44,989 nt of DNA from Kandleria vitulina DSM 20405 (GTDB taxonomy: Bacteria > Bacillota_I > Bacilli_A > Erysipelotrichales > Coprobacillaceae): assembly GCF_000702065.1 (NCBI RefSeq), contig NZ_JNKN01000016.1:1-44989 (forward strand). Direction: 5' to 3'. Below are positions 14,862-29,726 of this stretch, piece by piece (the first letter of the stretch is position 1; every line of letters begins with the position of its first letter). The translations under genes were made by a program, and so were the position numbers. The notes under the pieces were generated by a model, which was not told the origin of the DNA, made no database searches, and saw nothing but the letters and a program-made list of their open reading frames with translations.

Positions 14862-15022
14862 ATGGGTAAATAAGATATTTCATATATATATCAAAGACGT
14901 AAAATTTTTACACAATAATGGACGGATAAGAAATTTTTTAAACAAATCTAATATTTTATAAGGTAAATAAAAAGGGTTTGTGCTATTATAGTTGTATATT
15001 AATTAGGAGGATTATAGAGAAA

Positions 15023-16327
15023 ATGAAGAAATTTAGTTATGTAGTTGATAATCCAATGGGCGTACATGCTCGTCCTGCTGCTTTATTAGCTCAGTTATGC
15101 GTTAATTTAAAAAGTGCTGTTGTAGTAGAATGTAATGGGAAAACAGCAAGTGGGAATAACGTATTACAGATTCTTGCTTTAGGCGCTAAGAAAGGTGATA
15201 CTTTAAACGTTAGTGCTGAAGGTGACGATGAAGAAGCTGCAATTTCACAGATTGAAGAATTATTCAACGGTGAATTTACAGAAAAAGAAGAATATGATGT
15301 TCTTAAGGTAGCATTCTTTGGAACAAAGGATTATGACAGAACTTTCTTTAGTGAATTAACTAAGGATAAAGGTCCTGGAACATATAACTGCGATATCAAA
15401 TATTTCAGCGTACGTTTAACTCCTGAAACTGCTTCTTTAGCAAAAGGTTATGATGCTGTTTGTATCTTCGTAAATGATGAAGCACCAAGACAGGTTGTAG
15501 AAGAATTAGCTGCAGGTGGCGTTAAGTTAATCTTATTACGTTGTGCTGGTTTCAACAACGTAGATTTACAGGCTGCAAAAGAATGCAACATCAAGGTTGC
15601 TCGTGTTCCAGCATACTCTCCATATGCAGTAGCTGAACATGCTATGGCTATCATCCAGGAAGCAAACAGAAGATTAGGTAAAGCTTATAACAAAGTAAGA
15701 GATAACAACTTCGCTTTATCTGGTTTATTAGGTGTAGACTTACATAATAAAGTCTGCGGTGTTATGGGTACTGGTAAAATTGGTCAGTGCTTCGCTAGAA
15801 TCGCTAAAGGTTACGGTATGACTGTAATTGGTTGGGATGCTTATCCAAATCAGGCTTTAGTAGATGAAGGATTATTAACTTATGTTTCTAAAGACGAATT
15901 ATTAGAAAAAGCTGATTTAATTTCATTACATGCACCATTAATCATGGGTGAAGGTGGAACTTACCACTTAATCGATGCTGATGCAATCAGCAAAATGAAA
16001 GATAACGTTATGCTTGTAAACTCAGCTCGTGGACCATTAATCGATGCAGAAGCATTAATCGCTGCATTAAAACAGGGTAAATTCCACGCTGTAGCATTAG
16101 ACGTATATGAAGGAGAAGATGCTAACGTTTATACTGATAGATCTGATGAAGCATTACATAGCTCTATCACTGCACGTTTACAGATGTTCCCTAACTTAGT
16201 ATTAACATCTCATCAGGCATTCTTCACTCGTGAAGCATTACAGGCTATCGCTGTTGTTACTATGGAAAATGCTCGTAACTTCAACGAAGGTAATGATTTA
16301 GGTTTTGCTGAATGTAAAGCTCAGTAA
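15023..16327 (+). CDS. HPr phosphocarrier domain fused to D-lactate dehydrogenase
   Basis: The 434-aa protein joins two complete domains. Residues 1-85 are an HPr domain with the active loop GVHARPAALL (His15, Arg17) in exact HPr numbering; Ser46, the HPr-kinase site, is Asn46. Residues about 93-434 are an LdhA-type D-2-hydroxyacid dehydrogenase, which reduces pyruvate to D-lactate with NADH. It has the MGTGKIGQ dinucleotide loop with Asp272, and catalytic Arg336 (SARG), Glu365 (DVYEGE) and His397 (SHQAF), each offset by 101 from the Lactobacillus D-LDH residues. I infer that enzyme I could phosphorylate His15 with PEP and so tune lactate formation. The ATG at 15023 has TAGGAGG upstream. Leucine is nearly all TTA, suggesting high expression. 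Single-gene unit with a strong terminator. Confidence 0.92.
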   Translation: MKKFSYVVDNPMGVHARPAALLAQLCVNLKSAVVVECNGKTASGNNVLQILALGAKKGDTLNVSAEGDDEEAAISQIEELFNGEFTEKEEYDVLKVAFFGTKDYDRTFFSELTKDKGPGTYNCDIKYFSVRLTPETASLAKGYDAVCIFVNDEAPRQVVEELAAGGVKLILLRCAGFNNVDLQAAKECNIKVARVPAYSPYAVAEHAMAIIQEANRRLGKAYNKVRDNNFALSGLLGVDLHNKVCGVMGTGKIGQCFARIAKGYGMTVIGWDAYPNQALVDEGLLTYVSKDELLEKADLISLHAPLIMGEGGTYHLIDADAISKMKDNVMLVNSARGPLIDAEALIAALKQGKFHAVALDVYEGEDANVYTDRSDEALHSSITARLQMFPNLVLTSHQAFFTREALQAIAVVTMENARNFNEGNDLGFAECKAQ

Positions 16328-16430: not shown

Positions 16431-16492
16431 TTCTTAAAAAAATCTTAAGAAAAAGTGATAAAATTCTTAATTTTGGGTGGAAATTCTTAAAA
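16431..16492 (+). promoter_or_regulatory. Phased CTTAA box array upstream of the first NlpC/P60 gene
   Basis: CTTAA cores start at 16433, 16444, 16466 and 16486, that is at steps of 11, 22 and 20 bases, so they face one side of the helix. The last lies about 14 bases before a TATAAT (16500-16505). The paralogous gene downstream has a cleaner array (17361-17404). Direct repeats at 11 bp are typical binding sites of OmpR/PhoB-family response regulators. Confidence 0.6.
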
Positions 16493-16545
16493 AAATGTTT
16501 ATAATTATAAACAGTAACAATAAAAATGTAATGAGGAGATTATTT

Positions 16546-17322
16546 ATGAATACCCACCAATTTATCAAGAAACATAGAAAGTTAATTATGATTATCGCTG
16601 CAATCGCATTGATGATTGTCCCTGTATCAGCTGCAAAGAATGCAATGGAAGTAGATGCGTCTACATCAAAAATTGTAAGCTTAGCTTATTCTAAATTGGG
16701 AAGTAAATATATTTATGGTGCAAGCCATTCTATGAGTGCTTTAAGAAATAAAAAACAGAGAGCTTTCGACTGTTCCGGTTTTGTGAGCTGGGTGTATTAC
16801 CAGTCAGGTCACAATATTGGTGTTCGTACAACTAGTTCATTAAGATCAGTTGGTAAACGTGTATCATGGGCTAACAGACAGAAAGGTGATATCTTATTAT
16901 TCGGTTCTCATACAGGAATCTATATTGGTAATAATAAGATGATTCATGCTCCAAATAGCAGATCACGTGTAAAAGTAGAAAATTTATCTGGTCATTGGAG
17001 AAGTAGACTTAAACAGATAAGAAGAGTTGTTTCTTCATCTGATAAGGCTGCTGTAGAAAAAACTATCTCTAAGGCTACAAAAGCAGTAAATGCTGCTAAT
17101 ACAAATACATCTTCTTCAAAATATACAACTGGTAATTGGAAAATTACTGTATCTTCTAATGTAAGAGCTAAAGCAACTGCTTCTTCTAAGAAATTAAGTA
17201 GATTGAAGAAAGGTTCAGTTGTTACTGTTAAATCTATCAAGTATGGTAGATGGGCAAAAATCTCTTTCAAAGGAAAGACAGGATGGGTATCTCTAAGAGG
17301 TGCTCATGCAGTTAGAGCTTAG
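16546..17322 (+). CDS. Secreted NlpC/P60 cell-wall hydrolase with SH3-like domain
   Basis: The 258-aa precursor has a signal peptide (basic HKHRK-like start, LIMIIAAIALMIVPVSA). The NlpC/P60 domain spans about residues 35-160 with Cys76 (FDCSGFVSW), His122 (GSHTGIYIG) and His134 (MIHAP), the usual catalytic triad for cleaving peptidoglycan stem peptides. After a Ser/Thr/Ala-rich linker, the C-terminus is an SH3b-type wall-binding domain (WKITVSSNVRAKATASSKKLSRLKKG, GKTGWVSL). The mature protein is very basic. Start chosen at the ATG with GAGGAG 7 bases ahead. A close paralogue follows, and both have CTTAA box arrays upstream. Confidence 0.92.
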   Translation: MNTHQFIKKHRKLIMIIAAIALMIVPVSAAKNAMEVDASTSKIVSLAYSKLGSKYIYGASHSMSALRNKKQRAFDCSGFVSWVYYQSGHNIGVRTTSSLRSVGKRVSWANRQKGDILLFGSHTGIYIGNNKMIHAPNSRSRVKVENLSGHWRSRLKQIRRVVSSSDKAAVEKTISKATKAVNAANTNTSSSKYTTGNWKITVSSNVRAKATASSKKLSRLKKGSVVTVKSIKYGRWAKISFKGKTGWVSLRGAHAVRA

Positions 17323-17360: not shown

Positions 17361-17404
17361 TCTTAAGAAAATCTTAAGCAAACCTTAAGAATTTCTTAAG
17401 AAAG
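17361..17404 (+). promoter_or_regulatory. Four tandem 11-bp TCTTAAG repeats upstream of the second NlpC/P60 gene
   Basis: Four consecutive 11-base units read TCTTAAGAAAA, TCTTAAGCAAA, CCTTAAGAATT and TCTTAAGAAAG, with CTTAAG cores starting at 17362, 17373, 17384 and 17395. The array ends 2 bases before the -35 element of the gene's promoter. This is the geometry of an activator site for an OmpR/PhoB-family response regulator; WalR and CiaR sites have the same 11-bp step. The regulator is not in the window. Confidence 0.75.
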
Positions 17405-17406
17405 TA

Positions 17407-17435
17407 TTTACAAATGAATATTCTTAATGCATAAT
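17407..17435 (+). promoter_or_regulatory. Promoter of the second NlpC/P60 gene
   Basis: TTTACA (17407-17412) and CATAAT (17430-17435) are 17 bp apart, directly downstream of the 11-bp repeat array. Confidence 0.7.
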
Positions 17436-17461: not shown

Positions 17462-18160
17462 ATGAATACCCACATATTCAAGAAGAGTAAGAAGCTAGTT
17501 ATTACTATTGTATTATTATTCGCTGTTGTTTTTGGTTTAGTTACAAATGCGATGAGTGCAGATGCGGCTTCTTCTAGGATAGTGAGTAAAGCATATTCAC
17601 GATTAGGAAGTACATATGTGTATGGGGCAGGACATTCTATGGGAGCCCTAAGAAACAAGAGACAAAGAAAGTTCGACTGCTCAAGCCTTGTCAGCTGGGT
17701 GTATTATCAATCTGGTATTAATATTGGCGTAAGAACGACAAGTTCTCTTCGCTCAGTAGGAAAACGTGTATCATGGAAAAATAGACAGAAAGGCGATATT
17801 CTATTATTTGGTTCACACACTGGAATCTATATTGGAAACAATAAAATGATTCATGCACCAAGTTCTGGAAAGAAGATTCAGATTACTTCTTTATCAGGAC
17901 GCTATAGACGTCGTCTTAAGCAGATTCGTCGTGTTGTAGGTGTTAAAACTTCAAGCAAGAAGAAATCCTACAAGGCCGGTCGTTATGTCTTAAAACATTG
18001 GATGTACGTGCGTACGAAAGCCAGCGTTCACTCTAAAAGAGTTGGTAAGATCTACAAGAGAACAGTTATTCGTGTAGTATCAACTAAAGGATCTTGGGGA
18101 CGTTTTAAATATAAAGGTCACTATAGATATGTGAAGCTTACTAAAGCAAGAAGGGTATAA
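17462..18160 (+). CDS. Secreted NlpC/P60 cell-wall hydrolase, paralogue
   Basis: The 232-aa precursor has a signal peptide (KKLVITIVLLFAVVFGLVTNAMSADA) and an NlpC/P60 domain with Cys73 in FDCSSLVSW, the same GSHTGIYIG and MIHAP motifs, and the long shared stretch around GVRTTSSLRSVGKRVSW. It is clearly a duplicate of the preceding gene. The C-terminal SH3-like part (LKHWMYVRTKASVHSKRVGKIYKR) has diverged and the linker is shorter, so wall targeting may differ. It should cleave peptidoglycan stem peptides outside the cell. The ATG has GGAGGAG 7 bases ahead. It has its own promoter with an 11-bp repeat array. Confidence 0.92.
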   Translation: MNTHIFKKSKKLVITIVLLFAVVFGLVTNAMSADAASSRIVSKAYSRLGSTYVYGAGHSMGALRNKRQRKFDCSSLVSWVYYQSGINIGVRTTSSLRSVGKRVSWKNRQKGDILLFGSHTGIYIGNNKMIHAPSSGKKIQITSLSGRYRRRLKQIRRVVGVKTSSKKKSYKAGRYVLKHWMYVRTKASVHSKRVGKIYKRTVIRVVSTKGSWGRFKYKGHYRYVKLTKARRV

Positions 18161-28349: not shown

Positions 28350-29651
28350 TTATGCAATATGTGCTGTAATAGTTTTTGAATAAGAACCATATGCATCATT
28401 TTTATAGGCTCTTACTTTGATCTGATAATCTCCGGGAACAGTTAATGTGTAAGATAAATCATCAGTCTTTTTAGTCTGCCAATTATCTTCACCAGATTTT
28501 TTATAGGCGATTTCATAAGATGGGGATCCAGCTACTTTACTGAATGATACAGTATTGTTTGAAATGGAAAGATTGCTTACTTTATCAGGAAGAACATAGT
28601 AGACAATCTTCTTTTCTCCATCATAATCATTTGTCCCATAGATTGTAACAGCGTATTTTCCAATATCAACACTGTCTTCATATTCAACATTGTAGTTAGC
28701 GCCAATATGCAAGATTTCACGATCATATCTTACTAAAGCACCCGGTGTCTGTAGATTGCCATCGTATTTGAACTTAGTAGAAGATAGAGTGACATCCGCA
28801 TTGTTGATATCACGGTTCTTGATCTTAAAAGATTTCGTAATCTTTCCACAGTAATTATTGATACCGTGAATGATAATCTTGTAGTTTCCTGCCTTGATAC
28901 GATCTCCTTCATATTCAAGAGTGTAATCCTGACCTTCTGTAAGGATCTTATCTTTATACATGATTGTAGCAGTAGGTCTCTTTTCAGTACCATCGTAGAT
29001 GTATGAAGCATCATTTAATGTAGCATAGGCATTAATAAGATTTGTCTTGCCTTTATTTTTAAGATCCTCTACATGAGATACATACCAGTAGCTTGCAAAG
29101 TTCTGGATTGTAACTTTTCGAGCATACTTGATTGGCATTTCTTTCTTAGTCTTCTTGCTGGCAGGATCGCCACAGTAGAAGACACCGTCTTCATAGCGTG
29201 TCAGCAAGATACAGTGATTACCCTGATGGAATCCATTGTAGCCATCTCTTGCATAGATTGCTAATCCTTCAGGGTGCTGATTAAGAAGGCTGATGACCTT
29301 CTCTTTCTTTTGCGCCATTGTCATGCCAGAGTTCATATCAAAGTTCTTATGTGTGATTGTGTAGGCATAACGAGAAGTACGATATGTAAATTTATGAGAA
29401 AGACCTGCGCCCCATCCAATTTTTCTCATTGATTCTTCAGTGATGGATGACCATTGAGGATCTTCAGCGAGAAGAGCTTTACGACGTACTGCCATCGTTG
29501 CAGATGCAAGCGTACAGGTTACTGATGTCTGCTGTGTTAAAAAAACATTCGAGTCACCAAGGTTAGTGGCACTTACGATTTCTGGAATAAATGTGAAACC
29601 GCCCAATCCTAAGAGGATCGCTAAGCCGACTGCGATAAGCTGTCTTTTCAT
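28350..29651 (-). CDS. Secreted C39-like peptidase with Ig-like repeats and a FnIII-like domain
   Basis: The 433-aa precursor has a signal peptide (KRQLIAVGLAILLGLGGFTFIPEIVSA). Residues about 35-200 resemble a C39-like papain-fold domain, with Cys in QQTSVTCTLASATMAVRR and His in GNHCILLTRYEDGVFYCGDP. Two Ig-like MBG/YDG-type repeats follow (YIYDGTEKRPTATIMYKDK and FKYDGNLQTPGALVRYDRE, each ending in a YTLEYE or YNVEYE strand), then a FnIII-like domain (about 345-433). It is likely a surface or released protein; no LPxTG anchor is seen. Start at 29651 has GGAG 8 bases upstream. Two CTTAA boxes 11 bp apart lie between its -10 and RBS. Confidence 0.85.
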   Translation of the reverse strand: MKRQLIAVGLAILLGLGGFTFIPEIVSATNLGDSNVFLTQQTSVTCTLASATMAVRRKALLAEDPQWSSITEESMRKIGWGAGLSHKFTYRTSRYAYTITHKNFDMNSGMTMAQKKEKVISLLNQHPEGLAIYARDGYNGFHQGNHCILLTRYEDGVFYCGDPASKKTKKEMPIKYARKVTIQNFASYWYVSHVEDLKNKGKTNLINAYATLNDASYIYDGTEKRPTATIMYKDKILTEGQDYTLEYEGDRIKAGNYKIIIHGINNYCGKITKSFKIKNRDINNADVTLSSTKFKYDGNLQTPGALVRYDREILHIGANYNVEYEDSVDIGKYAVTIYGTNDYDGEKKIVYYVLPDKVSNLSISNNTVSFSKVAGSPSYEIAYKKSGEDNWQTKKTDDLSYTLTVPGDYQIKVRAYKNDAYGSYSKTITAHIA

Positions 29652-29666: not shown

Positions 29667-29688
29667 TTCTTAAGAAATTCTTAACATA
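29667..29688 (-). promoter_or_regulatory. Two CTTAA boxes 11 bp apart at the C39-like gene start
   Basis: Plus-strand CTTAA cores start at 29669 and 29680. They lie just downstream of the -10 (29697-29702), around the transcription start, whereas the arrays of the NlpC/P60 genes lie upstream of the -35. A regulator binding here would be expected to repress. Confidence 0.5.
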
Positions 29689-29696
29689 CAAGCTTT

Positions 29697-29726
29697 ATAA
29701 TACTCTATAACACCTTTCGCCGTCAA
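29697..29726 (-). promoter_or_regulatory. Promoter of the C39-like gene
   Basis: On the minus strand TTGACG (29726-29721) and TATTAT (29702-29697) are 18 bp apart, about 46 bases before the ATG. Confidence 0.7.

Follow-up and report, generated by a model that had tools for sequence, protein, structure and literature searches.

A phased CTTAAG array before wall hydrolase genes of Kandleria vitulina and its relatives, a probable operator of a VanR-like regulator

The WalRK system (YycFG, VicRK) controls a wall hydrolase regulon through an 11-bp direct repeat and has both activating and repressing targets (PMC7299342, PMC9210968). In the available text of these sources, WalR of B. subtilis activates hydrolases and represses iseA (PMC7299342), and WalR is described as present in all Firmicutes (PMC9210968). 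CiaRH of streptococci uses the consensus NTTAAG-N5-TTTAAG, with repeats 10 nt before the -10 element according to the accessible part of PMC3091779. The VanRS systems of glycopeptide-resistance operons (VanR, VanRG) have direct repeats 5' of the -35 element, for which the text available from PMC4405338 gives the consensus (T/C)CGTANGAAA(T/A)T. RR_1586 of Clostridioides difficile, a regulator of the OmpR family, has the direct repeat DRTTAAGNWWW with an 11-bp unit and a proposed regulon that takes in sporulation and germination genes, as far as the accessible text of PMC6222199 goes.

The array described here lies in a stretch of 44,989 nucleotides from Kandleria vitulina DSM 20405 that was analysed as a whole (the window). 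It consists of four CTTAAG cores starting at 17362, 17373, 17384 and 17395, a step of exactly 11 bp, 5' of the promoter of an NlpC/P60 gene (Table 1), all of which a first-pass annotation of this DNA had read correctly. Two of its details needed amendment. The 7-mer TCTTAAG, said to be repeated four times, is present in three of the four units, the third being CCTTAAG. The promoter, said to follow after 2 bp, is present with a 17-bp spacer (TTTACA-N17-CATAAT), but it begins 6 bp from the end of the last core, and the shorter distance holds only with the unit taken as TCTTAAGNNNN. A TTTAAG motif is reportedly that of HP1043 of Helicobacter.

Table 1. Coordinates of arrays, promoter elements and predicted target genes in the window
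Feature	Position	Strand	Remark
Degenerate array CTTAAA/CTTAAG/(GTGATA)/CTTAAT, 11-bp step	16433..16471	+	Last unit 34 bp before TATAAT at 16500
Paralogous secreted NlpC/P60-SH3_3 protein, predicted target gene	16546..17322	+	
Array of four 11-bp units CTTAAGAAAAT CTTAAGCAAAC CTTAAGAATTT CTTAAGAAAGT	17362..17405	+	Proposed operator, upstream/activator position
-35 element TTTACA	17407..17412	+	
-10 element CATAAT	17430..17435	+	Last core's first base 35 bp earlier
Secreted NlpC/P60 protein, weak SH3_3 match (Pfam), predicted target gene	17462..18160	+	ATG at 17462
Surface protein, Y_Y_Y domain, sub-threshold MBG_3 match, candidate target	28350..29651	-	
Two units GTTAAGAATTT CTTAAG	29669..29685	-	Between -10 and RBS; downstream/repressor-like position
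Apparent promoter TTGACG-N18-TATTAT, before the 29669 array	29697..29726	-	Read by eye

The CTTAAG hexamer itself is not enriched in the window, with 16 occurrences against 14.1 per dinucleotide shuffle. For pairs at the 11-bp step, three exact cases were found against a shuffle mean of 0.003; a single one of the 300 shuffles held any such pair and none held a triple. The first-pass annotation had called for a genome scan for phased repeats and had named an equal frequency in random DNA as the outcome that would speak against it. A search of the K. vitulina genome that allowed up to one mismatch gave 27 places for the pattern and 6 for its reversed form, and neither the shuffles nor the spacing of pairs agrees with an equal frequency. 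In a sample of ten genomes, nine of them picked for having a hit and the two listed G017 entries excluded, a gap of N5 accounted for 31 of the 73 CTTAAG pairs among those listed (gaps 0 to 24), and across the 23 gap lengths that remain when 5 and 16 are set aside the mean was 1.65 pairs each. In favour of a chance origin of the repeats, the intergenic DNA is AT-rich (window GC 35.7%) and some one-mismatch matches fall inside genes, for example C1:66321, as read from the flanks of part of the 27 places. Chance is nevertheless contradicted by the shuffles and the spacer preference, as well as by the hydrolase targets and the fixed promoter geometry across genera described below, and we regard it as refuted in practice.

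The exact pattern is present in 26 of 60 genomes, that of K. vitulina included. Among the 37 genomes of the same family there are 51 forward sites against 16 for the reversed pattern, and among the 23 genomes of the neighbouring family 3 against 3. A stricter form, CTTAAGAAWWTCTTAAGAA, was found in 8 of 296 genomes sampled from the class, all 8 within the 11 that belong to this family. By a hand tally, 37 of the 51 exact family sites precede genes for secreted wall hydrolases or for a 207/241-aa protein family, genes being classed by domain searches in some cases and by eye from sequence similarity in others. Counted by sites, the putative regulon is rich in wall hydrolases, as that of WalRK is, and agrees with the wall regulon that had been suspected in this lineage, for which homeostasis is as possible a role as stress. 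The commonest target among the 37 sites is a conserved protein of ~500 aa with Ig-like and NlpC/P60 domains. Six further sites lie by other envelope genes, namely three ABC-2 exporters, a sugar-transferase-like gene (by eye), a sulfatase-fold LtaS-like gene and a D-Ala-D-Ala ligase gene, the last in an intergenic region shared with a ClpB-like gene. Seven lie elsewhere (G009 C3, G009 C75, G012 C40, G013 C102, G014 1005690, G021 C1 and G028 C90), and one, at a contig end (G032 C153), was left unclassed. At the ligase locus (L283, G021:C7:191623) the exact array stands 112 bp 5' of the ATG, a location of note because VanR systems concern that step.

The position of the array relative to the promoter was compared in the window and in 17 Ig-NlpC/P60 promoters of relatives (from 10 genera, some of them represented by several species). 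The C that begins the last core lies 35 or 36 bp 5' of the best -10 element, sought over 35 positions, in 18 of these 18 promoters, whose -35 elements are TGGACT, TAGACA, TGGACA or TTTACA. Concordant distances were obtained at C15:20337 (36 bp), at lysozyme genes of G024 and G015 (36 and 35 bp) and at a CHAP gene of G006 (36 bp). The 16466 unit of the window lies 34 bp from its -10 element and the array on C2, which likewise precedes an NlpC/P60 gene, 35 to 37 bp. The ABC-2, ddl and LtaS-like gene sites have weak -10 candidates only, and no -10 candidate was found for the C9 site, which precedes a Phage_lysozyme2-SH3 gene, or for the G015 S41 site. The C9 array departs from the common geometry and speaks against a uniform operator. 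A last core next to the -35 element is an activator position, and head-to-tail repeats in steps of one helical turn near -35 are the arrangement of OmpR/PhoB-type operators, so the layout that the annotation had recognized stands. One regular expression also located a near-palindrome like ATTGATATAATCAAT in 11 of the 17 Ig-NlpC/P60 promoters (for example L083 and L080), at a constant distance of 25 bp 5' of the array, and a similar stretch occurs in 3 of 12 loci of regulator-free genomes (for example L118 and L111; gene start unlocated in at least 2 of the 12). A second regulator may bind there.

Arrays downstream of promoters were found in the K. vitulina genome as well. At the Phage_lysozyme2 gene at C15:20449, two units precede TTGACT-N16-TATAGT and a further four lie between the -10 element and the RBS. 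Eight units, including a poor one, stand before the gene for a secreted 207-aa protein at C15:34464; the first of them overlaps the apparent -10 element TATATT and the last is just 5' of the RBS. The protein has no Pfam match, and its C-terminal end shows a likeness to 3D-type domains by eye only. A G015 homolog, 56% identical over 139 aa, has a similar arrangement, the promoter being followed by six units, two of them poor. The Phage_lysozyme2 gene and an S41 protease gene point away from each other, and arrays occupy the region that separates them, an order kept in K. vitulina (L016) and G015 (L076), and a one-mismatch pair at C15:36292 lies directly 5' of an HTH_3 gene at C15:36324.

As to the protein that would bind the array, the annotation was right that the core, CTTAAG, differs from the WalR consensus TGTWAH-N5-TGTWAH, but the WalR- or CiaR-type regulator that it had suggested did not hold up. 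None of the 43 family genomes has a regulator that reaches the curated WalR cut-off (NCBIfam NF040534, YycF; 340 bits), the best scoring 244.7, and 2 of 14 control genomes exceeded it. WalRK is likely, rather than proven, to be absent from the 43 genomes, since the cut-off may miss distant orthologs. A streptococcal-type CiaR-like activator would share the core and the 11-bp step of the array. The CiaR repeats, however, lie 10 nt before -10 in the accessible text of PMC3091779, against about 30 nt here, where the last core begins 35-36 bp before -10, and the CiaR recognition helix, VVEVYVSKVRKKL, is different and has no close counterpart by eye among the K. vitulina regulators; we consider such an activator very improbable. 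A family-universal regulator, of the L027 or L028 type and conceivably a distant analogue of WalR, could also be imagined, with the array-free genera having changed their operators and kept the regulator. Among the K. vitulina regulators L027 comes nearest to the WalR model (205 bits), both types are present in all seven genomes that were fully or nearly fully sampled, and such universality is in line with the report of WalR in all Firmicutes (PMC9210968, available text). Yet both types are also present in G003, G004 and G010, which have no exact array, and the unit resembles the VanR site, not TGTWAH. We hold this explanation to be unlikely.

The consensus of 24 array units, YCTTAAGAAWW, differs from the VanR/VanRG consensus in the available text of PMC4405338 mainly at one conserved base, with G replaced by T in most array units. 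The RR_1586 repeat, on which the comparison with that system was made, has a purine where the array unit has C. Nine OmpR-family matches were found in the K. vitulina genome, eight of them above the cut-off. The regulator at G000:C19:3632-4333 scores best with VanR models, its 279 bits being short of the curated 350-bit cut-off of NF033117 (NCBIfam). The kinase encoded by the following gene scores best with VanS, its 277.5 bits being short of the curated 400-bit cut-off of NF033091, and its next model is WalK at 187 of 725 bits. The two genes form a set beside pyrG in K. vitulina and several relatives. Unlike in VanRS operons, no van resistance genes were seen by eye in the gene neighbourhoods of the pair, and the targets here are wall hydrolases. 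Orthologs of the regulator occur in 23 of the 43 family genomes (E at most 1e-75), and the exact array is present in all 23 of these against 1 of the other 20 (Fisher 2.5e-11; by genus 1.8e-4, with 13/0 and 1/6), a co-occurrence that may be a single evolutionary event, since the array-bearing genomes look like one lineage in regulator trees. In the single exception, G012, the array lies at a P-type ATPase/citrate synthase pair (by eye) and no regulator ortholog is found.

The regulator comparison covered the OmpR family, with a 12-genome tree of 96 regulators (incomplete for G007, G011, G018 and G002, and with three short sequences dropped). In this tree the L024, L027 and L028 types also occur in array-free genomes, the L025 and L029 types are represented in array-free genomes, with no copy found in some genomes that bear arrays, and the distribution of L030, L031 and L032 is patchy. 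Because these distributions do not follow the arrays, they were counted in favour of the pyrG-linked VanR-like regulator. The L024 type was rejected as a candidate; in a relative it stands after a phoU-like gene (by eye) with TTAAC-type Pho-like boxes. The recognition helix of the pyrG-linked regulator, NT(I/V)MVHIRKLREK, is constant in all readable orthologs (14 of 15) and nearly common to other VanR-like proteins of the same genomes. This similarity of helices leaves some room for another VanR-like paralog as the regulator, either the L025 type or the clade of G007, G011 and G018 (L147, L148 and L136, respectively), or for several VanR-like proteins sharing sites. TTAAG-type 11-bp repeats do stand at the promoter of that clade itself, but a search of 23 family genomes found it at 80% identity or more in no more than 8, and it is missing from K. 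vitulina. The L025 type is present in G003 and G010, which are array-free, and was absent from the set of regulators retrieved from the array-bearing G019. We judge a paralog to be quite unlikely. In G018 and G011, TTAAG-type repeats also stand before the gene after the second clade's kinase. The promoter of the pyrG-linked regulator itself has no array, and autoregulation was rejected as a candidate: no CTTAAG-N5-CTTAAG with at most 2 mismatches lies within ~1.5 kb of the K. vitulina regulators.

Sequence comparison therefore makes a VanR-like regulator, not WalR or CiaR, the most likely one for the array. We propose, with a probability of about 0.68, that the array is the operator of the VanR-type (OmpR/PhoB-family) regulator encoded with a VanS-like kinase beside pyrG, and that it drives a wall hydrolase regulon in the family. 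We infer binding, phosphorylation, the sign of regulation and the signal in this model. The phosphorylated regulator would bind head to tail on the 11-bp units, and the last unit, directly 5' of a weak -35 element, would activate the sigma-70-type promoter of the secreted NlpC/P60 hydrolase. The same operator would serve the regulon across the family, mostly for activation, and at some genes binding to an array between -10 and RBS would block transcription. By analogy, the two array positions could allow the activate/repress logic of WalR and, because both occur, the VanRS-type system probably balances several hydrolases, as WalRK does. More tentatively, a lineage-specific VanRS-type system may have taken over the WalRK job of homeostatic hydrolase control in this family, its CTTAAG arrays activating upstream of -35 and repressing after -10; we consider this possible but rather doubtful.

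If true, the VanR subgroup, known from antibiotic resistance, would be tied to ordinary wall growth, which suggests a use of VanR-type regulators beyond glycopeptide resistance. A family in which no regulator reaches the WalR cut-off and some members have a VanRS-like pair linked to their hydrolases would be a testable case of system replacement. Our literature searches, in the texts accessible to them, returned no paper on a VanR-type wall hydrolase regulon. Elsewhere in the window, positions 14978-16327 form a single open frame encoding both a PTS-HPr domain (residues 18-97) and a D-2-hydroxyacid dehydrogenase (117-440), which is an unusual fusion.
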